A DNA stretch of 64,000 bases from Gammaproteobacteria bacterium (GTDB lineage Bacteria > Pseudomonadota > Gammaproteobacteria > Pseudomonadales > IMCC2047): contig JAJFKB010000014.1 of the NCBI GenBank assembly GCA_021773395.1, positions 248,001 through 312,000 on the forward strand. The letters run 5' to 3'. Shown here in pieces: positions 6,066-19,663 of the stretch. Below the pieces are notes generated by a model. It saw only the letters and a program-made list of their open reading frames with translations, searched no databases and was not told the origin of the DNA. A program made the position numbers and the translations under genes. Positions within the stretch are counted from its first letter, which is position 1. The number at the start of each line of letters is the position of its first letter.

Positions 6066-6605
6066 ATGAGTATCTCGCCTCCCTCAGATAAGGTTTGGTG
6101 GAAAGAGCCCATCGAGAAAACCGAACTTATCTGGATATCCATCGTGTTTGTCTGGGGTGTCTTTATGACATTTATGATGCCCTATTGGCACGTTGTAGGT
6201 GATCAAAACTTACCCAATGAAACTTATCGGGTAACCCCCGAGCAGTTTATGGCGAAAGCGCAAGGCATGGTTGACCAGTTCACTGTGGGTGAGCATGGCC
6301 CACAAAAAACGCCAATCGTACATCCGCCTGCAGGCAGCGACGTTTATCTGGTTGCACGTTTGTGGAGCTGGTGGCCAGTGCTGGAGCTTGAGAAAGGTCA
6401 AAGCTATCGTGTTCACCTTTCATCACTGGATTGGCAGCATGGCTTTTCTTTACAGCCAGCCAATATTAATATCCAGGTAGTACCGGATTATGAGTATGTA
6501 GTTAATCTGACGCCTGATGAATCGGGTGAATACTCGTTGATCTGCAATGAGTATTGCGGAATAGGCCATCACTTGATGATTGGCAAACTTCTAGTCGTTG
6601 AATAG
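6066..6605 (+). CDS. norS: CuA-containing subunit II of a NOR-type heme-copper oxidoreductase (NorS-like)
   Basis: A 179-residue subunit II with one N-terminal helix (LIWISIVFVWGVFMTFMMPYW) and a periplasmic cupredoxin domain. All CuA ligands are present: His in DWQHGFSLQP and the C-x-E-x-C-x-x-x-H-x-x-M motif in CNEYCGIGHHLMIGK. It would take electrons from cytochrome c on the periplasmic side and pass them to the heme centres of the next subunit. The order small ORF, subunit II, subunit I, SenC matches the norSY-senC clusters described in ammonia oxidisers and other proteobacteria (sNOR). That assignment rests on gene order and the unusual subunit I active site, so an unusual oxygen reductase remains possible. 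Confidence 0.8.
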   Translation: MSISPPSDKVWWKEPIEKTELIWISIVFVWGVFMTFMMPYWHVVGDQNLPNETYRVTPEQFMAKAQGMVDQFTVGEHGPQKTPIVHPPAGSDVYLVARLWSWWPVLELEKGQSYRVHLSSLDWQHGFSLQPANINIQVVPDYEYVVNLTPDESGEYSLICNEYCGIGHHLMIGKLLVVE

Positions 6606-6618
6606 GTAAGGGGACATC

Positions 6619-8310
6619 ATGAATACCAATTTCCGTGTGTGCCCAGAGACTGGGTTCCATGTTCATAAACCAGCAGAACTGCTGATGAAGGCAAATGCCG
6701 TCGCAGCGGTTGTATTTTTGCTCGTGGGCGGTACGTTCGGCCTGCTTGTAGGATTGACTCGTTGGCCGGCAGTTCACCTGTTGCCTGCAGATCAGTTCTA
6801 TCTTGTATTGACTGCTCATGGTCTTAATGTATTGATTTTCTGGATTATATTTTTTGAAATAGCACTTTTGTATTTTTGCTCGGCGGTGCTCCTTAAATGT
6901 CGACTGGCAACGCCCAAACTGGGCTGGGTCGCGTTTGCGTTGATGCTGATCGGAGCGTTGCTCAACAACTATATCGTGATGCAAGGTAACTCAAGCGTCA
7001 TGATGACCTCCTATACGCCAATGGGTGCAGACCCTCTGTTTTATCTGAGTCTGATTCTGTTTGCGGTGGGCGCGTTAATCGGGACCTTTATATTTTTCGG
7101 AACGCTGGCTATTGCAAAAGCAGAAAACACCTATGAGGGTTCGGTTCCGCTGGTCACCTTTGGTGCGACTGTCGCGGCTATTATTGCCGTGTTTACAATT
7201 GTCAGTGGTGCGATCATCCTGATTCCAACCTTCCTTTGGAGTGTTGGTCTGGTGGCGCATATTGATCCGTTGATGTATCGCATGATCTGGTGGGCATTTG
7301 GTCACTCGTCACAGCAAATTAACGTTTCGGCTCATATATCAATCTGGTATTTCATTGCAGCGGTTGTATTTGGTGCCAAGCCGCTCTCAGAAAAGGTAAG
7401 CCGTACAGCGTTCTTGATGTACATTCTGTTCCTGCAGCTGGCAAGTGTTCACCACCTGTTGGTGGATCCTGGACTCAGCTCTAACTACAAAATGTTCAAC
7501 ACCAGTTATGCGATGTACCTGGCGGTAATGGCCAGCATGGTGCATGGGTTAACTGTACCCGGTGCGATTGAAGCAGCGCAGCGTGCGCGCGGTTTCAACA
7601 AGGGTTTGTTTGAGTGGCTGACTAAAGCTCCTTGGGGCAATCCTGTATTCTCAGGCATGTTTATATCGCTGGTTGGCTTTGGCTTTTTGGGTGGTATTAC
7701 GGGTGTGGTTATGGGTGTTGAGCAGATCAATATTCTGATTCACAACACTGTGTATGTTCCCGGACACTTCCATGCCACAGTGGTGATTGGTACAACGTTG
7801 GCATTTATGGCGCTGACCTATTGGCTGGTACCCGTATTGTTCCGCCGTGACCTGGTTATGAAGGGTCTGGCAAAATGGCAGCCCTATATCTTTGGTTTAG
7901 GTATGACCGGTGTATCACTATTCCTGATGGGTGCAGGTACGCTGGGTGTGCCGCGCAGACACTGGGATATTGGTTTTGCCGGAACAGGGATGACTCATGA
8001 TTTTCCTGCGGCGGCCTATACAATGATGGCGCTTAACGGTATGTCAGTTGTGTTGGCTGTAGTCGGTGGAGCAGCATTCTGTATCATTATCGTTGCTTCA
8101 CTGCTGTTTGGCAGAAAGCTGGGTGAAGAGAAGTCTTCTCCTGCCCTGGCTGCTGAAATGGTTACCGATGACGAATATAAGACTCTTCACGCATCTGGAG
8201 GTATTACTGTGCCGGGTACGCTTTGTCTGACCTTTATATTCTTCGCATCGTTTGCAGCCTACTACTTCATCAACTGGAAGTATTTGTCTCAGACTTGGGG
8301 AATCAGCTAA
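6619..8310 (+). CDS. norY: heme-copper oxidoreductase subunit I of NOR type (NorY-like), active-site Tyr replaced by Gln
   Basis: A 563-residue membrane protein with about 12-14 helices. The metal ligands are all present: His67 (low-spin heme, LTAHGLN), His229 (CuB, FGHSS), His278-His279 (CuB, SVHHLL), His383 and His385 (high- and low-spin hemes, PGHFHATVV). In oxygen reductases the helix VI motif is GHPEVY, with a Tyr four residues after His cross-linked to it. Here the motif is GHSSQQ, so that position is Gln233. Loss of the Tyr and presence of a CuA partner are features of the non-canonical NO reductases (sNOR/eNOR type) rather than oxygen reductases. It probably reduces NO to N2O using cytochrome c electrons. 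A strong terminator follows the gene. Confidence 0.82.
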   Translation: MNTNFRVCPETGFHVHKPAELLMKANAVAAVVFLLVGGTFGLLVGLTRWPAVHLLPADQFYLVLTAHGLNVLIFWIIFFEIALLYFCSAVLLKCRLATPKLGWVAFALMLIGALLNNYIVMQGNSSVMMTSYTPMGADPLFYLSLILFAVGALIGTFIFFGTLAIAKAENTYEGSVPLVTFGATVAAIIAVFTIVSGAIILIPTFLWSVGLVAHIDPLMYRMIWWAFGHSSQQINVSAHISIWYFIAAVVFGAKPLSEKVSRTAFLMYILFLQLASVHHLLVDPGLSSNYKMFNTSYAMYLAVMASMVHGLTVPGAIEAAQRARGFNKGLFEWLTKAPWGNPVFSGMFISLVGFGFLGGITGVVMGVEQINILIHNTVYVPGHFHATVVIGTTLAFMALTYWLVPVLFRRDLVMKGLAKWQPYIFGLGMTGVSLFLMGAGTLGVPRRHWDIGFAGTGMTHDFPAAAYTMMALNGMSVVLAVVGGAAFCIIIVASLLFGRKLGEEKSSPALAAEMVTDDEYKTLHASGGITVPGTLCLTFIFFASFAAYYFINWKYLSQTWGIS

Positions 8311-8469: not shown

Positions 8470-9441
8470 ATGATTTATCAAGCCTTCTGGTGTGACCGCC
8501 TCGTCCCTATAATTATTACCTTATTTCTTATCATGCCGCTTTCGCTAACAAATGCGTCTATGGGAAAAATGGATGAAAAAATGCCTGGTTTGGGGGGTAT
8601 GCATGATAGCAAGAGGGATGTGGGTGCTTCGCATGAAAGTGGATCTGGTTCGATAGATCACAGTATAAAAAACGAAGCACATGGTGCTTCAATGCAGGAC
8701 CCGGATACCGATTTTGCAACCTTTGATCGGAATCAGGCTTATCAATATAGCCAGGCGGTAATAGGCAAGACTGTAGCAAACTATACATTCAGAGATTCTG
8801 ATAGCGTCAAAGTAGAGCTAAAGGATTTTGCCGGCCAACCGCTGCTGATAAGTTTAATATACACCAGTTGTTATCATATTTGTCCGACGACTACCCGTTA
8901 TTTGGCGAAGGTCGTGGCAGATGCCCGAAAAGCTATTCCTGGTAAAAAGTTCACACTGTTAACGATAGGCTTTGATACGCCCATCGATACGCCAGAAGCG
9001 ATGCAGGAATTTCGTAAAAAACAGGGGGGAGATAGCATTGCTGACTGGCATTTTCTCAGTGCGGATGAGTCGACAATTAAAGCCTTGGTCAAAGATTTAG
9101 GTTTTATTTACTACCCGTCGCCCCAGGGATTTAATCACTTGGTTCAGACAAGCGTACTGGATGAACAGAGAAAGATTTACCGTCAGGTCTATGGCATGAA
9201 GTTTGAAGTACCCATTTTGGTCGAACCATTGAAAGAGCTGCTTTATAATCGACCAACAGAGTCTCTGGCTCAATCTTTTACCGATAAAATTCGATTTTTT
9301 TGTACAGTTTATGACCCATCAAGTGAGAATTACCGCTTTGACTACTCTATTTTTATCGGAGTATTCATCGGAGCGATGAGCTGTCTGGTATTGGGCCTGC
9401 AGTTGATTAAAGAGTGGCGCAGATCAATTAAAGCATCCTAG
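8470..9441 (+). CDS. senC: SCO1/SenC-type copper chaperone with Met/His-rich linker and C-terminal anchor
   Basis: A 323-residue SCO1/SenC/PrrC family protein. It has an N-terminal signal or anchor (LVPIIITLFLIMPLSLTNAS). A Met/His-rich, low-complexity linker covers residues 31-75. The thioredoxin-fold copper site carries Cys134 and Cys138 in TSCYHICPTT and a distal His223 in GFNHLVQ. A second helix at the C-terminus (IFIGVFIGAMSCLVLGLQLI) is unusual, since most SCO proteins have only the N-terminal one. SCO proteins deliver copper to CuA, so the target here should be the NorS-like subunit encoded upstream. The methionines and histidines may form an extra copper-binding segment. It leads the second half of the cluster, after the terminator. 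Confidence 0.85.
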   Translation: MIYQAFWCDRLVPIIITLFLIMPLSLTNASMGKMDEKMPGLGGMHDSKRDVGASHESGSGSIDHSIKNEAHGASMQDPDTDFATFDRNQAYQYSQAVIGKTVANYTFRDSDSVKVELKDFAGQPLLISLIYTSCYHICPTTTRYLAKVVADARKAIPGKKFTLLTIGFDTPIDTPEAMQEFRKKQGGDSIADWHFLSADESTIKALVKDLGFIYYPSPQGFNHLVQTSVLDEQRKIYRQVYGMKFEVPILVEPLKELLYNRPTESLAQSFTDKIRFFCTVYDPSSENYRFDYSIFIGVFIGAMSCLVLGLQLIKEWRRSIKAS

Positions 9442-9450
9442 GAAGTCATC

Positions 9451-11022
9451 ATGAAATCCCCCATAGTATATATTCGACAAGCAGGGAAAATGTTGCTCAA
9501 TCCGGTTGAGTTATTGTTTTCAAAAATATTTACTGATCACGCCAACCCGTTTTTCCATTTGGGCACCCTTTCATTTTTCTTTTTCTGGATAGCTGCAGGA
9601 TCAGGGTTATATCTCTATGTATTTTTTGAAACAAGTGTCCACGGTGCCTATTCCTCCATTGAGTATTTGACGAATGAGCAATGGTATCTGGGCGGTATTA
9701 TGCGCAGCCTGCACCGATACTCATCTGCAGCGATGGTGGTTGCAGTGACACTACATATTCTTCGAGAGTTTGTGAAAGGTCGTTATCAGGGGGTACGAGT
9801 ATTTTCCTGGGTTTCTGGTGTGCCATTGCTGTGGTTGCTGTTTTTGTCGGCGATTGGTGGTTACTGGCTGGTTTGGGATGAGTTGGCGCAATATATTGCT
9901 TTGTTAAGCTCTGAACTTCTGGATTGGTTGCCTATCATGGTTGACCCTATGGCTCGTAACTTTCTGAATGAAGAAACGGTAAGTGATCGGTTATTTTCAC
10001 TGTTAGCATTTTTGCATATTGGATTCCCTCTGGCGTTGTTATTAGGGATGTTTATACATATTCAACGCATTAGTTATGCTAAAACGAATCCGCCAAAGCA
10101 ACTGGCTATCGGCGCCATGGCGGCGCTCATTTTGCTATCGCTGATTAATCCGGCAATGAGTCAGGCACCCGCGAACCTTGATCAATCAGTCACCAATGTT
10201 GGTCTGGACTGGTTTTATCTGAATGTTTTTCCATTGATCGAAATTTGGGGGCCGGGATGGGTTTGGGGTCTGCTTTGTGGTATTTCCGGGCTATTGGTGA
10301 TTTTACCCTGGCTGTCACCGCATAAACGCAAACCCATTGCGGTGGTAGATCCCCCCAACTGTAACGGCTGTGCATGGTGCTTTGCCGACTGCCCTTACAG
10401 TGCGATAGTCATGAAAGTACATGATTTTAAAAAGGGCCACAAGCAAGCGGTGGTTGATCCAGATCTGTGTATCGGTTGTGGAATATGCGCCGGGGCTTGT
10501 CCTTCATCGACACCCTTCCGCAGTGTGGATGAGTTGATTACAGGTATTGATATGCCTGACTTGCCAGTAAAAGAATTGTTAAAACTGACTGATAAGAAAG
10601 CTAAACAGCTTAAGGGTGATAAACCAAAGGTACTTATCTTCGGATGTAGATCTGGAGCGCCGACTGAGTCTCTTGAGCAAGATAACGTGGCAGGAATTCT
10701 ACTACCCTGTGTTGGTCAATTACCGCCATCCTTCGTGGATTACATCTTTAGAAACAAATTGGCCGATGGCGTTATGGTAACCGGCTGCTGCGAGGAGGAC
10801 TGTTATTACCGCCTCGGCAACACTTGGATGGAACAGCGTTTTGCCGCAGAGCGTTTTCCAAAACTACGCACATCCGGCGCCAAGCGCGATATTGCGGTGA
10901 TATGGGCAGGAGAGCAGGGCAATAAGCAATTGGCCGATAAGCTGGATACATATGTCAAGACGCTTGAGAATAAAGGCCATGAGGATGATGTGCGGTTCGT
11001 TAAGGGAGGACGTGATGCCTAA
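9451..11022 (+). CDS. fusion protein: cytochrome b (b6-like) + two [4Fe-4S] ferredoxin motifs + MvhD-like domain
   Basis: A 523-residue fusion. Residues 30-290 are a cytochrome b N-terminal domain with two bis-His heme sites, His88/His102 and His189/His203, each pair 14 residues apart on one helix. Residues 300-350 carry two C-x2-C-x2-C-x3-C motifs (Cys304/307/310/314 and 340/343/346/350) for two [4Fe-4S] clusters. Residues 393-465 resemble the MvhD/HdrA-linked iron-sulfur domain of methanogen hydrogenases, with FGCRSG, LPCVGQLPPSF and GCCEEDCYYRLGN. The protein looks like a one-piece conduit between quinol (cytochrome b) and soluble low-potential carriers. I know such fusions only as uncharacterised 'hydrogenase iron-sulfur subunit' proteins beside NOR-type oxidases. 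The last 8 nt overlap the next gene, so the two are coupled. Confidence 0.85.
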   Translation: MKSPIVYIRQAGKMLLNPVELLFSKIFTDHANPFFHLGTLSFFFFWIAAGSGLYLYVFFETSVHGAYSSIEYLTNEQWYLGGIMRSLHRYSSAAMVVAVTLHILREFVKGRYQGVRVFSWVSGVPLLWLLFLSAIGGYWLVWDELAQYIALLSSELLDWLPIMVDPMARNFLNEETVSDRLFSLLAFLHIGFPLALLLGMFIHIQRISYAKTNPPKQLAIGAMAALILLSLINPAMSQAPANLDQSVTNVGLDWFYLNVFPLIEIWGPGWVWGLLCGISGLLVILPWLSPHKRKPIAVVDPPNCNGCAWCFADCPYSAIVMKVHDFKKGHKQAVVDPDLCIGCGICAGACPSSTPFRSVDELITGIDMPDLPVKELLKLTDKKAKQLKGDKPKVLIFGCRSGAPTESLEQDNVAGILLPCVGQLPPSFVDYIFRNKLADGVMVTGCCEEDCYYRLGNTWMEQRFAAERFPKLRTSGAKRDIAVIWAGEQGNKQLADKLDTYVKTLENKGHEDDVRFVKGGRDA

Positions 11023-11509
11023 GTTACGCCTGATTGTTTATCAAATTGTTGCCTATGCCTTTTTTATGGGCTTTATTGCCTATTTTTCCTCTGCGCCTAT
11101 GTGGAAACATACTGATCCAGCCAATGCCACGGTTAAAGTCAGTATAAGACACCCAGGAAAAATAGTTGGAGAATGCCGGGATTTGAGTGAAGCAGAAATG
11201 GGTAATCTGTCGCCCAACATGAAGGTCTTGCAGGAATGTCCCAGAGAACGCTCGCCGGTTACATTAAATATTGAACTTGATGGTGAGACTTTCTTTGAGT
11301 CCATTGCACGTCCCTCTGGATTGCAAAAAGATGGTGTTTCCACCTTTTATGGTCGATTTAGTGTTCCAGCGGGGGAACATCAAATCAAAGCAATTCTCAA
11401 GGATGATGTACATGCTGGTAGTGCGGACTTTGAGGTTCTGAGGACTATCAATTTGAGCTCAAGACAGGTTTTGGTAATCGATTTCAAGGATGGGTTTATT
11501 TTTAAATAA
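11015..11509 (+). CDS. membrane-anchored protein of unknown function (FixH-like topology)
   Basis: A 164-residue protein starting at ATG 11015 after AAGGGAGGA; the start lies inside the end of the cytochrome b fusion gene. One N-terminal helix (IVYQIVAYAFFMGFIAYF) precedes a periplasmic domain of about 130 residues predicted to be beta-rich (VKVSIRHPGKIVGECRDLS, VTLNIELDGETFF, GRFSVPAGEHQIKAILKDD). Two cysteines, in GECRD and QECPRE, could form a disulfide or bind metal. The topology resembles FixH/CcoH assembly factors of cbb3 oxidases, but I see no diagnostic motif. Context says it helps assemble or is part of the NorSY-linked complex. Confidence 0.75.
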   Translation: MPKLRLIVYQIVAYAFFMGFIAYFSSAPMWKHTDPANATVKVSIRHPGKIVGECRDLSEAEMGNLSPNMKVLQECPRERSPVTLNIELDGETFFESIARPSGLQKDGVSTFYGRFSVPAGEHQIKAILKDDVHAGSADFEVLRTINLSSRQVLVIDFKDGFIFK

Positions 11510-11607: not shown

Positions 11608-12969
11608 ATGCAAGACCAGCCATTTACACTCACCATTCCTGACGACAGTCGTCGATTGCTCTCTGTTTCCTGGCTGTGGCTGTGCGTGCTGGCTTTATTT
11701 GGTGCAGGAATTTTTTCATTGTTGCTGGTGCTTTCCCGAACGCCCTATATTCAGGATGTGTTTCCCTGGGTTGATTTTTTTCATACTGCATTAGTGGTGC
11801 ATGTTGATCTTTCGGTGTTGGTCTGGGGGCTTGCTTTTGCTGGTGTGCTCTGGAGCTTGAATTCAAAACTACGATTTATGGGAGTTGCCTGGACTGCATT
11901 TGGATTAGCAGCGGTGGGTACGCTCATTATCGCTTTATCGCCCTTTACTGGCGCAGGGAATGCGTTGATGAGCAACTATATACCGGTGCTGCGTGATCCA
12001 GTGTTTTTTGCCGGTTTGCTGATTTTTGCACTCGGATTTACAGTTTTGGTATTTCATTGTATGAGTGCTTGTCCTCCCGTCGGGCCCTGGATGACCGGGG
12101 AGGCCTCGTTACGCTTTGGACTAAATGCGGCGGCTGTATCGGCGGCTGTAGCACTTTGCGTTTTCATCTGGACCTATATACAGCTTCCTCAATATCTTGC
12201 CGGACAGGCTTTTTATGAACGCCTTTTTTGGGGCGGTGGGCATGTTCTGCAGTTCACCTATACTATGTTGATGCTGGTGGCCTGGCTCTGGTTGTCTACC
12301 AGTGCCGGTATAAGGTTACCTATCAGTCCTCGGGTTGTATTATTAATTCTGTTTTTCGGCCTGTTCTGTGTATTCCTGGCACCGATCATTCAGTTGGCTT
12401 ATCCGGTCACCAGTGCAGAGAATATACTCCTGTTTACCTGGTTGATGAGTTATGGCGGGAGTTTGGCAACATTACCGCTTGGTGCGGCTATTTTAATGGC
12501 GTTAATGACTGACAAATCCCAAACCAATGAGCAGAAGTTAGCTCGTTATGCGTTGATTTGTTCTCTCCTGTTATTCGGCATTGGTGGTGTTATCGGGTTT
12601 ATGATTCAGGGTAGTAACGTTGTTATACCGGCCCATTACCACGGCAGCATTGTGGGCGTATCGCTGGCGCTGATGGGCCTGACCTACGACCTGCTACCAA
12701 AAATGGGATATGCGCTACGTGATATAAAAATAGCCAAGTGGCAACCCTGGACCTATGGCGGGGGACAGTTGATGCATATTATGGGACTGGTCTGGTCCGG
12801 TGGTTATGGTGTGCAGCGTAAAGTTGCCGGAGCGGAACAGCAACTGGACAGTATCGAACGTGTCGTAGGAATGGGGTTTATGGGTATGGGGGGCTTGGTT
12901 TCATCTGTTGGCGGCGTACTGTTTATTATCGTAGTTTTAAGGGCACTCTTGCGAAAAAGAGTACAGTAG
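11608..12969 (+). CDS. heme-copper-oxidase-like subunit I paralogue lacking the CuB His-His pair
   Basis: A 453-residue protein with about 12 helices and the fold signature of subunit I. Retained histidines are His65 (VVHVDLS, low-spin heme), His212 (GGGHVLQF, helix VI) and His343/His345 (PAHYHGS, heme ligands in helix X). The helix VII segment (IIQLAYPVTSAENILL), where the two adjacent CuB histidines should be, contains none. The Tyr position after His212 is also changed (Phe). It therefore probably binds two hemes but not a normal CuB, and may act as an electron-transfer or NO-sensing/binding subunit rather than a catalytic one. It is homologous to, but clearly different from, the NorY-like protein upstream. 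It has its own AAGGG ribosome site, 98 bases after the previous gene. Confidence 0.8.
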   Translation: MQDQPFTLTIPDDSRRLLSVSWLWLCVLALFGAGIFSLLLVLSRTPYIQDVFPWVDFFHTALVVHVDLSVLVWGLAFAGVLWSLNSKLRFMGVAWTAFGLAAVGTLIIALSPFTGAGNALMSNYIPVLRDPVFFAGLLIFALGFTVLVFHCMSACPPVGPWMTGEASLRFGLNAAAVSAAVALCVFIWTYIQLPQYLAGQAFYERLFWGGGHVLQFTYTMLMLVAWLWLSTSAGIRLPISPRVVLLILFFGLFCVFLAPIIQLAYPVTSAENILLFTWLMSYGGSLATLPLGAAILMALMTDKSQTNEQKLARYALICSLLLFGIGGVIGFMIQGSNVVIPAHYHGSIVGVSLALMGLTYDLLPKMGYALRDIKIAKWQPWTYGGGQLMHIMGLVWSGGYGVQRKVAGAEQQLDSIERVVGMGFMGMGGLVSSVGGVLFIIVVLRALLRKRVQ

Positions 12970-13230: not shown

Positions 13231-13244
13231 TTGTTTTAGATCAA
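13231..13244 (-). promoter_or_regulatory. FNR/DNR-like box for the 60-aa membrane protein gene
   Basis: Read on the minus strand the 14-mer is TTGAT-CTAA-AACAA, one mismatch from TTGAT-N4-ATCAA. A perfect TATAAT lies 23 bases further on that strand. The box touches the start codon of the divergent TlpA-like gene, so it is better placed to drive the minus-strand gene. Confidence 0.55.
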
Positions 13245-13756
13245 TGTTAGCTAAAGGTAATCTATTTAGTGTTTCTCTAATGCTGGCTGCAAGCTTTGCA
13301 CTGGGTGCGTGCAATGATCAGCGGTTTGCCTCGCAGCAAGCTCCGGATTTAGATCTTCCCGGTTTAATCGACCAACAGCCGTACAGTTTATCGAGGTATA
13401 AAGGACAGGTGGTTTACCTGACATTCTGGGCGTCCTGGTGTGCGCCATGCAGAAAAGAAATGCCGTTTCTGGTGGATATGTATAGGCGATATTCCGGTGA
13501 GGGGTTTGAAATTCTTGCAGTTAATGTGGATGTCGACCCTCAGGCAGGGCAAGATTTTATATTGCCCTTCAATGTGCCTTTCCCAGTATTGAGCGATAGC
13601 GAAAGTGAGGCACTTAAGGCATATAGGGTTGAGGGGATGCCAACGCACTTTATCATCGACCGCGAAGGAGCGATACGCTACTCTCATATGGGTTTTAAGG
13701 AAGAGGATAAAAAAGCGATATTAGAAAAAGTTGGGCAGCTTACTGAGAAAGAGTAG
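13244..13756 (+). CDS. TlpA/ResA-like thioredoxin-family lipoprotein
   Basis: A 170-residue protein with a lipoprotein signal peptide (SLMLAASFALGAC, lipobox LGAC) and a TlpA-like thioredoxin fold. The active site is WASWCAPCRKEMP. The cis-proline loop is VEGMPTHFIID, and the fold is preceded by APDLDLPGLIDQQPYSLSRYKGQ. Such proteins keep apocytochrome heme-binding cysteines or CuA cysteines reduced in the periplasm. Its place between the NOR-type cluster and heme A synthase genes suits a role in maturing CuA or c-type cytochromes. The start is the first ATG; no strong ribosome site is seen, and a later in-frame ATG (SLMLAAS) is possible. Confidence 0.85.
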   Translation: MLAKGNLFSVSLMLAASFALGACNDQRFASQQAPDLDLPGLIDQQPYSLSRYKGQVVYLTFWASWCAPCRKEMPFLVDMYRRYSGEGFEILAVNVDVDPQAGQDFILPFNVPFPVLSDSESEALKAYRVEGMPTHFIIDREGAIRYSHMGFKEEDKKAILEKVGQLTEKE

Positions 13757-13790
13757 CCCTTAGCAATTAAACTGATTTTATAGAGTGCAT

Positions 13791-14849
13791 ATGACAAATC
13801 ATCAATCTTCTAACTATAAGAGTATTATCATCTGGCTGTTAATAGTCTGTGCTTTTATTTTCGCAATGGTGGTTGTGGGTGGCGTAACCCGGTTAACCCA
13901 TTCGGGACTTTCTATGGTCGATTGGCGTCCCATCATGGGAGCAATACCCCCGCTAAGCGAGCAGGAATGGCTCCGTACATTTGAAATGTACAAGCAGTAC
14001 CCAGAGTATTTGAAGCTCAATCATGGCATGAGCCTCGGCGAGTTCAAAGGTATCTTTTATTGGGAATTCGGTCACCGGTTGTTGGGACGCACTATCGGGC
14101 TGGTATTTTTTATTCCATTTTTATATTTTTGGCTTCGTAAAAAACTTGATAGGCCTTTACTCAAGAAATTGGGTGTTGCCTTTTTAATTGGCGGACTACA
14201 AGGGCTTATGGGTTGGTACATGGTGATGAGCGGGCTGGTGGATATGCCCAGGGTAAGTCATTACCGGCTTGCGGCACATTTGAGTTTGGCTTTATTCCTG
14301 CTGGCGTATTTGTTCTGGATTATTTTGGGCCTTAAAAATAAGGCTCAGCCGTTGCGAGTTGGTGATGGAGAATGCCAAGGTGTAAGAGGGTTTGCCCTCA
14401 TTACGACCGGTCTGGTTAGCCTGCAGATTATTTATGGTGCCTTTACGGCGGGTTTAAGGGCGGGTTGGGGATATAACACTTTTCCGACCATGAATGGCGA
14501 GTGGATGCCGGATGCTGTGTCCGCCTTATCACCACTTTGGTTGAATCTGGTTGAAAATAATGCGGGGGTTCAGTTTGTTCATAGACTCTTGGGTACCTTA
14601 CTGCTGCTATCTGTAATCGGGTTGTGGAGCAATATTTTTAGAAAAACGTTTAGCGCAAGCCAGAAAACCAGTTTGAATTTACTGCTCTGCTCCTTAATCG
14701 CGCAATACGGATTAGGCGTTTATCTGTTGATTAAAGTAGTGCCCATAGCGGCGGCCTCCTTACACCAGGCAGTAGGGTGTCTGGTTTTACTGGCTGCTGT
14801 AAATGTTAATTTCCAATTTCGCGAGAAAAAAATTAACGGCTTTGCATAA
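13791..14849 (+). CDS. ctaA: heme A synthase, COX15/CtaA family (form without Cys pairs)
   Basis: A 352-residue, eight-helix protein of the COX15/CtaA family, which converts heme O to heme A. The signature GGVTRLTHSGLSMVDWRPIMG and the four expected heme-ligand histidines are present: His95 (EFGHRLLGR), His163 (AAHLSLAL), His264 (QFVHRLLGT) and His325 (ASLHQAVG). It lacks the extracellular Cys pairs, so it resembles the mitochondrial/alphaproteobacterial COX15 type. The upstream GTG at 13785 is an alternative start. Its stop directly abuts the stop of a second, divergent-type CtaA on the other strand. No heme O synthase (ctaB) is in the window. Confidence 0.85.
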   Translation: MTNHQSSNYKSIIIWLLIVCAFIFAMVVVGGVTRLTHSGLSMVDWRPIMGAIPPLSEQEWLRTFEMYKQYPEYLKLNHGMSLGEFKGIFYWEFGHRLLGRTIGLVFFIPFLYFWLRKKLDRPLLKKLGVAFLIGGLQGLMGWYMVMSGLVDMPRVSHYRLAAHLSLALFLLAYLFWIILGLKNKAQPLRVGDGECQGVRGFALITTGLVSLQIIYGAFTAGLRAGWGYNTFPTMNGEWMPDAVSALSPLWLNLVENNAGVQFVHRLLGTLLLLSVIGLWSNIFRKTFSASQKTSLNLLLCSLIAQYGLGVYLLIKVVPIAAASLHQAVGCLVLLAAVNVNFQFREKKINGFA

Positions 14850-15860
14850 TCAGGCCCGCTCTTTGCAAAGGTACATGAGCGCATTAACCAAGCTTAATAG
14901 CAAAAGTGCCGCGACTAGATTGTGGGCTGTAACGAAAACCAGAGGTAGCTGATAATAGATTGAAATTAAGCCAAGCAGCAGTTCGATTAACAGAAATGCT
15001 GCTATGGCCTTTGATGTTGTTGTTAATGCACCGCCGACCTTCATAAGCTTAAAAGCAAAAAAACCAAGAAAGAGCATGCACATGACTGATAAATATCGGT
15101 GCGTCATGTTGATCGTTTGTGCGAACTGGTCGGCGAGCAGAATTGAACCCTGCTGATCAAGGATAAGTTCGCGAGATAAGAAGAAGCTTTCCTTTAAATC
15201 AACGGCTGTTGGCCAAAGCTGGTCGCACAATAGTCTAGAGTTACAAGCGGTTGCCGCAAAATTTGCGCTAACCCAGGCGCCAGAGAGGATTTGTAATGAC
15301 AACAGTATTATCGCCGCGATAGCGAATATTTGCGTGGCTATATTTGTTTTGATTCTGTCTGGAATCAGACTGGATTGACCGAGCCACCATAGTGTCGCCA
15401 ACATAAACATGCCGCCGCCGAGATTTCCCAAGGTAATCCATGGAATAGTTCGAGAGGGTGTTTTATAACCCAAAAGGGCAAGGAAAATAGTTGTACCCAT
15501 TAGCAATATTGCTGCCAGCAGGCCGGGCTGCCCTCTAAATTTTCTTTTAATTGAAATTAAAAAAATCAGCAATATGGTTACACCCAGCGTGCTGGCTATA
15601 AAACGGTGGGCGACACGAGCGCCCTTGTGAGACATTTCGGCGCCTTCCTTGGTGAGTACAGTGATACCCTGTTTTTCAGCTTGTACGCCTATTTGACCGT
15701 AACAATCAGGCCAGGGAGAACAATTCAGGCCTGACTGTGAGAGTCGGATGTAGGCGCTTAAGACAACTGTGCATAGCGTCAATAGAAGAGAGATATAGAT
15801 TAGTGAAGTATATACTCCACTGCGGTTTTCTAAGTTGTTTGTCATTGACTTAGTCATCAT
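14850..15860 (-). CDS. second COX15/CtaA-family protein with Cys pairs and one expected heme His replaced by Asn
   Basis: A 336-residue CtaA-family membrane protein of the Cys-pair type: Cys47/Cys53 in NCSPWPDC and Cys206/Cys212 in CNSRLLCDQLWP. Ligand histidines are visible at His85 (RVAHRF), His254 (NMTHRYLS) and His313 (VTAHNLVA). The second ligand, expected in a HLLGG-like helix, appears as Asn146 in TLGNLGGGMFML by my alignment. If right, one heme site is altered and the protein may not be an ordinary heme A synthase. It converges on the other ctaA gene with no gap and diverges from nirI. Its function could be heme modification for the unusual heme-copper enzymes nearby. Confidence 0.8.
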   Translation of the reverse strand: MMTKSMTNNLENRSGVYTSLIYISLLLTLCTVVLSAYIRLSQSGLNCSPWPDCYGQIGVQAEKQGITVLTKEGAEMSHKGARVAHRFIASTLGVTILLIFLISIKRKFRGQPGLLAAILLMGTTIFLALLGYKTPSRTIPWITLGNLGGGMFMLATLWWLGQSSLIPDRIKTNIATQIFAIAAIILLSLQILSGAWVSANFAATACNSRLLCDQLWPTAVDLKESFFLSRELILDQQGSILLADQFAQTINMTHRYLSVMCMLFLGFFAFKLMKVGGALTTTSKAIAAFLLIELLLGLISIYYQLPLVFVTAHNLVAALLLLSLVNALMYLCKERA

Positions 15861-15984: not shown

Positions 15985-17742
15985 ATGCAAATGCAATCTC
16001 GTCTACATGGGTTATTACCGTTCCTGCAACTAATGATATTGTTGTTGGGCCTGACAGTTTATGCCCAAGCCAGGGCAATTGGGATTACTGATGTTTCACT
16101 CCATCAGGCGGCAATACTAATGGAGGGCATAAACAAATTAGGAGAAATTGATAAGCAAACTCTAGCTCGTCCAGTCTATTCAGATGACCAATTGCTCGGT
16201 TATATTTTTCTGACCAACGAGGTTGCTCCGATACCGGCCTATTCCGGAAAACCTGTCGCTGTATTGGTTGGAGTGAACCTGCAGGCAAAGATTGAAGCTA
16301 TTCAAATCCTCGAACATGAAGAACCAATATTGGTTATTGGAGTGACCGACAAGGATTTGAATGGCTTTACACAGCAGTATCAGCGGCAATCTGTCTATTC
16401 AAAAGTCAGAATTGGCGCCCATAGCAGGGAAGGCTATATAGGAATAGACGGTATCTCGGGTGCAACAATCACTGCAATGGTGTTAAATCGTTCGATTATG
16501 CGGTCTGCACAACGCATTAGCCAATACTACGAGCTACCGAGAGTAAAAGCCAAAAGGGTAGCAGCGGGAAGAGCAACAGCTAAAGCTAAAGAGGTTGTTA
16601 CGTTAGCGGTCGCAGAAGTTAAGAAAAAGGAAACAGAATCCAAACTGCCCGTTATACAAAGTGAGTCAGAGGCTGAAATTGCGGATCAGCCTGCTATGGT
16701 GAAAACTGTATCCCCTGTTCCTGCCGAAGCTCTGAAACAGGATTCCCTACAGGAAAGTCAGGGAAATGACGCTGTAATCAAGAACAAAGCATTTGTGATT
16801 GAAGAGGCGCATTGGTTCAATATAGATGAAGTGTGGCATGAAAAGGGATTTGAATTGTCGGTAATCCTGGCAGCGTTGGCTGTACTCATATTCATTCTTT
16901 TCTTTCAGGATTGGCTGGTAGTTCGGACACGCCTGTTTAGGAGATTACGGCTCGCTTATCTGGTTTTTACGGTTTTATTCATTGGCTACTATTGCATGGC
17001 GCAATTATCCATCATGAATGTACTGGCCTTTATTCAACTGTTGAGTAATGAGTTTACCTGGGAAACACTCATGATCGACCCCCTGATATTTGTGCTTTGG
17101 GGATTTGTCGCGGTCAGTATTATTTTGTGGGGCAGAGGGGTTTATTGCGGCTGGTTGTGTCCTTTTGGGGCGATGCAGGAGCTGATTCATAAAGCAGCCA
17201 AGAGAGTTGGACTCAAATCTTACCAGTTCCCGCAAATGGTGCATGAGCGCCTGTGGGCTATAAAATATATCGTACTCATCTTGTTGGTGGGTGTTTCGCT
17301 GGAGTCACTGGCGACAGCTTCAGCCATTGCTGAAATAGAGCCGTTTAAAACCACCTTTGCATTAAAATTTCAGAGAGAGTGGTGGTTTGTTGCCTATGCG
17401 GTAATCCTGTTGGTGATCTCAGCGTTCAACAGTAAATTTTTCTGTAAGTACCTTTGTCCGCTTGGGGCAGGCCTTAGTTTTGCCACCCGTTTTCGGGTGT
17501 TCGACTGGCTACGCCGTAGAAAAGAATGCGGACGACCTTGCCAAACCTGTGCGGCTATATGTCAAATTTCGGCTATTAAACATACTGGAGAAATTATTGA
17601 TACCGAGTGTCACTATTGCCTTGAATGTCAGGTTGATTACTGGGATGATGGGATGTGTCCGCCGCTCATAGAAAAACGAAAAAAAAGAGAGCGCCGGTCG
17701 CATCGTTCACGTCAGAAAATTGCGGTGCAGCCATTAGATTAA
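15985..17742 (+). CDS. nirI: NirI: NosR-family membrane flavoprotein/polyferredoxin
   Basis: A 585-residue NosR/NirI protein. It has a signal segment and a periplasmic FMN-binding domain with the covalent-flavin Thr motif GISGATIT (Thr161/163). A low-complexity Lys/Ala/Glu linker covers about residues 185-260. Several helices follow, with the CGWLCPFGA and CKYLCPLGA motifs (CxxxCP). The C-terminal cytoplasmic cysteine clusters are CGRPCQTCAAIC and CHYCLECQ...C, for iron-sulfur centres. In Paracoccus NirI is needed for nirS expression or activation and sits next to nirS, as here; NosR itself is usually over 700 residues and next to nosZ. It probably passes electrons across the membrane for NirS maturation or expression. 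A consensus FNR-type promoter precedes it. Confidence 0.88.
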   Translation: MQMQSRLHGLLPFLQLMILLLGLTVYAQARAIGITDVSLHQAAILMEGINKLGEIDKQTLARPVYSDDQLLGYIFLTNEVAPIPAYSGKPVAVLVGVNLQAKIEAIQILEHEEPILVIGVTDKDLNGFTQQYQRQSVYSKVRIGAHSREGYIGIDGISGATITAMVLNRSIMRSAQRISQYYELPRVKAKRVAAGRATAKAKEVVTLAVAEVKKKETESKLPVIQSESEAEIADQPAMVKTVSPVPAEALKQDSLQESQGNDAVIKNKAFVIEEAHWFNIDEVWHEKGFELSVILAALAVLIFILFFQDWLVVRTRLFRRLRLAYLVFTVLFIGYYCMAQLSIMNVLAFIQLLSNEFTWETLMIDPLIFVLWGFVAVSIILWGRGVYCGWLCPFGAMQELIHKAAKRVGLKSYQFPQMVHERLWAIKYIVLILLVGVSLESLATASAIAEIEPFKTTFALKFQREWWFVAYAVILLVISAFNSKFFCKYLCPLGAGLSFATRFRVFDWLRRRKECGRPCQTCAAICQISAIKHTGEIIDTECHYCLECQVDYWDDGMCPPLIEKRKKRERRSHRSRQKIAVQPLD

Positions 17743-17832
17743 AAACAAAGATTAATACCATTTGAATCGAGCTGTTCCAGCGCGAGTTTAGAATACCAAA
17801 AACACTGTGATCGCTGAGTAAAATGTACATTG

Positions 17833-17846
17833 TTGATTTGAGTCAA
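17833..17846 (+). promoter_or_regulatory. FNR/DNR-type box and -10, nirS promoter
   Basis: TTGAT-TTGA-GTCAA has one mismatch to TTGAT-N4-ATCAA. TAGTCT at 17869-17874 lies 22 bases downstream, exactly where a class II -10 is expected. nirS therefore has its own promoter although nirI lies just upstream on the same strand. Confidence 0.75.
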
Positions 17847-17863
17847 TGACTTGTGCGCGGTGA

Positions 17864-19663
<1,800 letters not shown>

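Follow-up and report, generated by a model that had tools for sequence, protein, structure and literature searches.

A cytochrome b-ferredoxin-MvhD fusion protein as a regular companion of eNOR in Proteobacteria

A membrane protein in which a bc1-type cytochrome b is joined to two [4Fe-4S] motifs and an MvhD domain (hereafter FUS) is a very regular companion of eNOR, an unusual nitric oxide reductase, in Proteobacteria. We propose, with a probability of roughly 0.4, that FUS may act as a transmembrane electron carrier dedicated to proteobacterial eNOR, supplying NO reduction. In FUS, a cytochrome b of the bc1 type bears another kind of cytoplasmic arm, and we infer the dedicated role for it.

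The fusion protein and its operon

FUS (523 aa) is encoded at positions 9451..11022 on the + strand of the window (the whole stretch of 64,000 nucleotides that was analysed); this frame is open over all 523 aa, while the - strand in the same register contains many stops. The fusion is confirmed to be one protein made of three parts, all on the + strand: a cytochrome b part (9532..10326, residues 28-292) with six TM helices equivalent to bc1 helices A-F, two [4Fe-4S] ferredoxin motifs on the predicted cytoplasmic side (10339..10512, residues 297-354) and an FlpD/MvhD domain with four conserved Cys (10627..10968, residues 393-506). In Pfam, FUS matches Cytochrome_B at 24-207 (2.3e-19), Fer4_7 at 303-352 (7.8e-10) and FlpD/MvhD (PF02662) at 411-506 (6.9e-10; 39.4 bits vs a curated cut-off of 22.3). 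A sequence-only reading of this DNA had described a three-part fusion with two bis-His hemes, eight ferredoxin Cys and the MvhD Cys pattern, on all of which Pfam and the alignment agree, and it would have fallen had the profile search returned no MvhD match. The domain was found, but the extent given for it (393-465) was too short, as it runs from ~393 to 506 in the predicted structure.

The heme ligands form two bis-His pairs (H88/H102 and H189/H203), in which H88/H189 serve one heme and H102/H203 the other; by homology, we take these to be the P-side bL and the N-side bH, respectively. On the P-side, FUS carries the quinone-site-like motifs GYWLVWD (137-143) and D253-W254, of which W139, W142, D143 and D253-W254 are invariant (66/66 rows), and D253-W254 aligns with the PVWY motif (PEWY position) of a bc1-like cytochrome b. 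Conservation was read from a one-genome-per-species scan with cytochrome b motifs that yielded at least 588 stretches and at least 467 relatives, the best 80 loci being read; two loci from the window's own genome (L001, L003) and L004-L007, which repeat L008, L044, L017 and L023, were left out of the row counts. In the resulting 86-row alignment (the window, plasmid locus L002 and rows out of the best 80 loci of at least 467 relatives), the MvhD cysteines C399, C420, C446 and C451, presumably the ligands of a [2Fe-2S] cluster, were each found in 83/86 rows, and the full ligand set (4 His and 12 Cys, 16 residues) was kept in 80/86. Among the incomplete rows, L032 is cut by a contig end, L029 has one His that was not read, L063 is a full FUS without C451, L046 and L076 are FNR-type paralogs and L012 is a bc1-like cytochrome b.

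Structure prediction gave an AlphaFold model of the fusion with a pLDDT of 91.7 and a pTM of 0.89, and fold searches with FUS returned lists filled by cytochrome b chains, with the bc1 fold matched. Two bis-His sites in a four-helix core, together with the fold, place FUS with the bc1/b6f-type cytochromes b, and the quinone-site-like fold agrees with the quinol-type cytochrome b that had been proposed. The N-terminus, the BC and DE loops and the post-F segment are basic, and the AB, CD and EF loops acidic; by homology and loop charge, the 2x[4Fe-4S]-MvhD arm is thus predicted to lie in the cytoplasm. The proposed connection from the membrane to a soluble carrier in the cytoplasm is supported. 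FUS shares helices A-F, the two bis-His hemes and the fold with bc1/b6f cytochrome b, but it lacks helices G-H and an adjoining Rieske or c1/f protein, and adds a cytoplasmic Fe-S arm.

Upstream of FUS, the + strand encodes a cupredoxin, eNOR subunit II (6066..6605; CuA ligand set H125 C160 E162 C164 H168 M171), the COX1-family eNOR subunit I (6619..8310; HSSQQ, HH and HFH motifs) and an SCO1/SenC copper chaperone (8470..9441). Downstream, on the same strand, follow a small membrane protein that has a single helix and, at its C-terminus, a beta-rich domain (11015..11509; the ORF opens at 10952 and the ATG at 11015 was taken as its start), the COX1-like protein COX1b, an optional neighbour (11608..12969), a TlpA/ResA-type thioredoxin-like protein (13244..13756) and the heme A synthase CtaA (13785..14849). 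A-type oxygen reductases have HPEVY where subunit I of the window shows HSSQQ, which puts Gln at the catalytic-Tyr site. In the part of PMC8756737 available to us, a table of residues at this position assigns Gln to eNOR and Asn to sNOR; by this residue the neighbouring enzyme is eNOR, with NO reductase activity predicted. The earlier assignment to NorSY, an sNOR, is ruled out by the same Gln, and the tie of FUS to an NO-reductase operon is supported. Among the best 80 of at least 467 relatives, HxxQQ is present in 64/66 subunit I rows (the others being L024, a cut row, and L049, a distant oxidase with HPAVY), and the CuA ligands of subunit II are kept in at least 95% of 63 rows.

Several further features of the region were recorded. 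COX1b (11608-12969) conserves heme-ligand-type histidines (H65, H343, H345) and H212, without the HH copper pair. Next to the eNOR operon, two CtaA/Cox15 paralogs are arranged tail to tail (13785-15860), hinting at dedicated heme synthesis, and a NosR/NirI-like protein (FMN_bind, Fer4_5) is followed by the cd1 nitrite reductase NirS (15985-19663). No donor dehydrogenase was seen inside the operon.

Co-occurrence of FUS and eNOR

All of the loci read (80/80, the best 80 of at least 467 relatives) contain a FUS match above 400 bits, so that the fusion is not rare; their titles are alpha-, beta- and gammaproteobacterial, Magnetococcales and similar proteobacterial. Gene order was scored over the loci with enough flank among these best 80 of at least 467. 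Of the 56 loci testable for it, 51 have subunit I no more than 6 kb upstream of FUS; subunit II is upstream in 51/56, SCO lies within 3.5 kb upstream in 56/61, the small membrane protein follows FUS within 1.5 kb or is fused to it in 67/70, and COX1b is near FUS in 22/52. In L029, subunit I was missed and subunit II is present; in L036, a stretch that recurs as L108 of genome G212, eNOR is ~16 kb off; in L046, eNOR is present but more than 6 kb upstream owing to an extra gene; and L072 has no subunit I in its stretch. In L049 (1191-10043, a betaproteobacterial MAG), FUS, COX1b and a CtaA-like gene follow another oxidase with HPAVY, 23-27% identical to that of the window operon; this is the sole locus read in which FUS adjoins a non-eNOR heme-copper enzyme. 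In most proteobacterial loci tested (best 80 of at least 467), FUS is coded inside the operon of eNOR, a heme-copper NO reductase of the ba3-a1 type. An SCO gene is noted in an eNOR operon in the available text of PMC6431628 (section 8), and no cytochrome b fusion with eNOR is described in the accessible portions of the open-access literature searched, a scope that does not take in the primary eNOR study.

The association was also observed genome by genome. Of the 369 genomes in a class sample, 34 have FUS, 34 have eNOR subunit I and 33 have both; the survey that had been suggested for norSY thus did reveal a regular partner, which is eNOR instead. The one genome with FUS and without eNOR (G269) has a full FUS and is 77% complete, and in the one with eNOR and without FUS (G318) a contig ends less than 30 bases from subunit I. 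In the phylum sample, FUS was present in 34/398 genomes, and eNOR in 28 of 33 of these (window's genome, G000, excluded); the FUS genomes without eNOR are G525, G540, G626 and G677 (69-82% complete) and G547 (96% complete, in 730 contigs, with 6% contamination). None of four added FUS-free control genomes had eNOR, the eNOR-without-FUS direction being covered by the class sample. FUS and subunit I are kilobases apart on one contig in G212, G475 and G493, and in G457 FUS is internal to its contig and near NirS, eNOR being on a different contig; G273, G266 and G175, where the two genes lie on separate contigs near their ends, were excluded as evidence of separation.

Plasmids of Thermus thermophilus and Thermomicrobium roseum (L131-L133) carry COX1 homologues of 44-45% identity, with HGAQQ in subunit I and a CuA-type subunit II, and no annotated gene within 8-9 kb of this eNOR is FUS. 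FUS therefore seems to be a trait of proteobacterial eNOR, and eNOR chemistry seems independent of it. The eNOR-type COX1 of L131-L133 is annotated as a cbb3- or ba3-type oxidase. In the plasmid collection, 28 records match query P0001 and one covers at least 80% of it. Four genomes of a single family, all small and incomplete, have tandem double FUS genes (L137 1949-5113, L138 2368-5885, L139 3582-6998 and L140 353-3705). Two copies of FUS are also present in the cultivated denitrifier Thioalkalivibrio denitrificans ALJD (L057).

The small partner protein and a possible role in assembly

The small protein downstream of FUS has one TM helix and a beta-rich domain, in which C75 and C96 are invariant and H67 nearly so over 27 rows (residue numbers count from 10952, where the ORF opens). 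In 4/80 loci (L017, L020, L036 and L075; best 80 of at least 467 relatives), it is fused to the C-terminus of FUS. In the model of the L036 fusion (pLDDT 89.1), residues 521-539 form a helix, after which comes a confidently predicted beta domain; this domain would be periplasmic if the MvhD domain is cytoplasmic. In Pfam, 11 families each match 1/27 members (best E 0.009) and none matches the window's own protein, and comparison with the genome's own CcoG by hhalign gave a probability of 1%, with no credible similarity; a relationship to FixH or FixG_C is unsupported by either method.

The partner and the gene order bear on an alternative role, drawn by analogy, in which FUS and the small Cys-bearing protein would be a maturation reductase, sending cytoplasmic electrons to the periplasm for the making of eNOR and not for its turnover. 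Copper, or the thiols of SCO and subunit II, would be kept reduced during CuA building, which would make FUS a heme-bearing counterpart of CcoG or DsbD. The SCO gene, frequent as it is upstream of FUS, sits between subunit I and FUS, which gives the locus the look of an assembly block rather than that of a structural subunit, and CtaA-type genes are found in many loci (among the best 80 of at least 467 relatives). On the Defluviimonas plasmid (L002), a heme O synthase gene lies between subunit I and SCO; the eNOR operon of this plasmid also has a hemerythrin gene after the small membrane protein (11080-11484). The fusions of FUS to the small protein and its two invariant Cys also fit this alternative.

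To our knowledge, CcoG has no heme. Precedents are CcoG, a cupric reductase with two [4Fe-4S] clusters that is coded beside the cbb3 oxidase (PMC7558416, in the part available), and CrpH, a proposed copper reductase (from the accessible part of PMC13038864). The analogy with CcoG/FixG is one of working alike, both being membrane proteins that contain two [4Fe-4S] clusters and whose genes adjoin those of a heme-copper enzyme, but Fer4_18 and FixG_C are absent from FUS in Pfam, and its partner has no detectable FixG_C homology or credible similarity to CcoG or a Pfam family. Moreover, the genome already has a CcoG beside cbb3, and a maturation reductase has no need for a quinone-site-like motif. 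We consider a role confined to maturation doubtful; the Qo-like motifs and the conservation of the whole chain favour electron supply to NO reduction.

Electron flow and the proposed role

The direction of electron flow was approached through paralogs in which the same cytochrome b bears another cytoplasmic arm. In L046, L076, L105 and L136, it is joined to a plant-type [2Fe-2S] domain, FAD_binding_6 and NAD_binding_1, and in L104 to the set of flavodoxin, FAD_binding_1 and NAD_binding_1 domains that P450 reductase has (arms assigned by Pfam for L046, L105 and L104 and by similarity for L076 and L136). Two of these genes lie at 6483-8426 of L046 ([2Fe-2S]-FNR) and 3672-6212 of L104 (diflavin). 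The L046, L076, L136 and L104 paralogs share a gene cluster with FUS and eNOR, L105 lies elsewhere in G137, and every swapped-arm paralog found comes from a genome or locus with eNOR. A search of the class sample with P0001 at E 1e-20, expected to reveal the cytochrome part in other class genomes too, had G269 as its sole match without a subunit I match. In a tree left unrooted (the bc1 outgroup branch was too long), a single clade (99/99) unites the [2Fe-2S]-FNR forms with the contig-cut L107 row, and the L104 diflavin type, whose letter make-up is odd, sits among the MvhD-type rows (98/97, 98/91) away from it, which implies at least two module changes. Like NOX and ferric reductases, the paralogs combine six TM helices and two hemes b with an NAD(P)H-FAD module in the cytoplasm, but the cytochrome part of the paralogs is of bc1/b6 type and not of NOX type. 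FNR-type and diflavin reductases normally oxidise NAD(P)H, and this is our main argument for cytoplasm-to-membrane flow, rather than for a flow from quinol to a low-potential acceptor; the direction in the paralogs need not apply to FUS.

The sequence-only reading had linked MvhD domains to electron bifurcation. FUS 297-510 does match HdrA2 572-773 (Fer4 and MvhD; 7e-19), at 67 bits vs a cut-off of 1100, and PDB chains of MvhD (MvhD/VhuD) match FUS within 410-477; FUS nevertheless lacks the bifurcating flavin domain of the HdrA2/MvhD systems and is fused to a membrane cytochrome. None of 14 matches to HdrA (NF040770) in the window's genome is above the cut-off, the best being FUS itself (68 of 1100 bits) and the others at most 39 bits (1/14 control genomes has one above the cut-off), and FUS holds the only FlpD domain of that genome. 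Flavin-based bifurcation with Hdr partners is not supported by these two results. A quinone-based form could also be envisaged, in which quinol is oxidised at the P-side, electrons run via the hemes and Fe-S clusters towards an acceptor in the cytoplasm and the high-potential electron goes to eNOR. Helices A-F, the invariant P-side residues, D253-W254 at the PEWY position and the bc1 fold all suit such a scheme, as does the combination of Fer4 and MvhD seen in HdrA2. It appears improbable, given that no Rieske or c1 protein was found among the 19 neighbouring window ORFs, that the genome has no HdrA above the cut-off, that the paralog arms are NAD(P)H-type reductases and that heme b potentials are too high for making low-potential electrons without strong coupling.

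In the window's genus, FUS may be the sole cytochrome b. It is the only Cytochrome_B match both in G000 (98.9% complete), where cytochrome c1 has no match, and in the sister genome G001 (83%), and a bc1-type Cytochrome_B match was present in ten other genomes tested. Pfam found no Rieske or cytochrome c1/f beside FUS in those 19 ORFs. For alternative complex III in G000, the NrfD_2 search gave no match in any control. G000 has genes for caa3-type and cbb3-type oxidases, CcoG adjoining the latter. One might thus picture FUS as a substitute for complex III that oxidises quinol at its Qo-like motifs and passes electrons directly to the CuA of eNOR, with the arm being regulatory or a side outlet. 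We hold this to be very unlikely: a periplasmic domain of the c-type or Rieske kind is missing from FUS, the arm is not idle, since nearly all full rows preserve its 12 Cys, and cytochrome c1 is kept in 33/35 eNOR/FUS genomes, so that eNOR could take electrons from cytochrome c as usual.

In the electron-supply role that we prefer, a soluble donor (ferredoxin or a dehydrogenase) would deliver electrons at the MvhD [2Fe-2S] centre, from where their path would run over both [4Fe-4S] clusters and then over heme bH and heme bL in turn. The exit on the periplasmic side might be a quinone at the Qo-like pocket or the small Cys-bearing partner, and the electrons would finally reach eNOR, supporting NO reduction independently of complex III. 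Co-occurrence, gene order, the exchanged arms, the loop charges and the single cytochrome b found in two genomes of the window's genus speak for this role. Against it stand the cytochrome c1 of 33/35 eNOR/FUS genomes, the Thermus and Thermomicrobium eNOR without FUS nearby, the other oxidase beside FUS in L049, the SCO gene between subunit I and FUS, an operon in which no donor dehydrogenase was seen, the five FUS genomes of the phylum sample that showed no eNOR and the MvhD Cys missing from L063. The sequence-only interpretation as a whole is partly supported.

eNOR, modelled with a proton channel in the available part of PMC8756737, has rarely been studied and is present in many uncultured Proteobacteria (among the best 80 of at least 467 relatives). 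Altogether, we tentatively suggest that proteobacterial eNOR may come with a plug-in transmembrane reductase of its own, namely a cytochrome of the bc1 type with an arm swapped between MvhD/ferredoxin, NADH-type FNR and diflavin forms, through which NO respiration or eNOR assembly would be fed from the cytoplasm, with a bypass of complex III possible. If so, a regular partner with an exchangeable redox arm would alter the view of how eNOR is supplied with electrons or assembled, FUS would be a genomic marker for functional eNOR, and an MvhD domain would be at work outside the methanogen-type bifurcation complexes.
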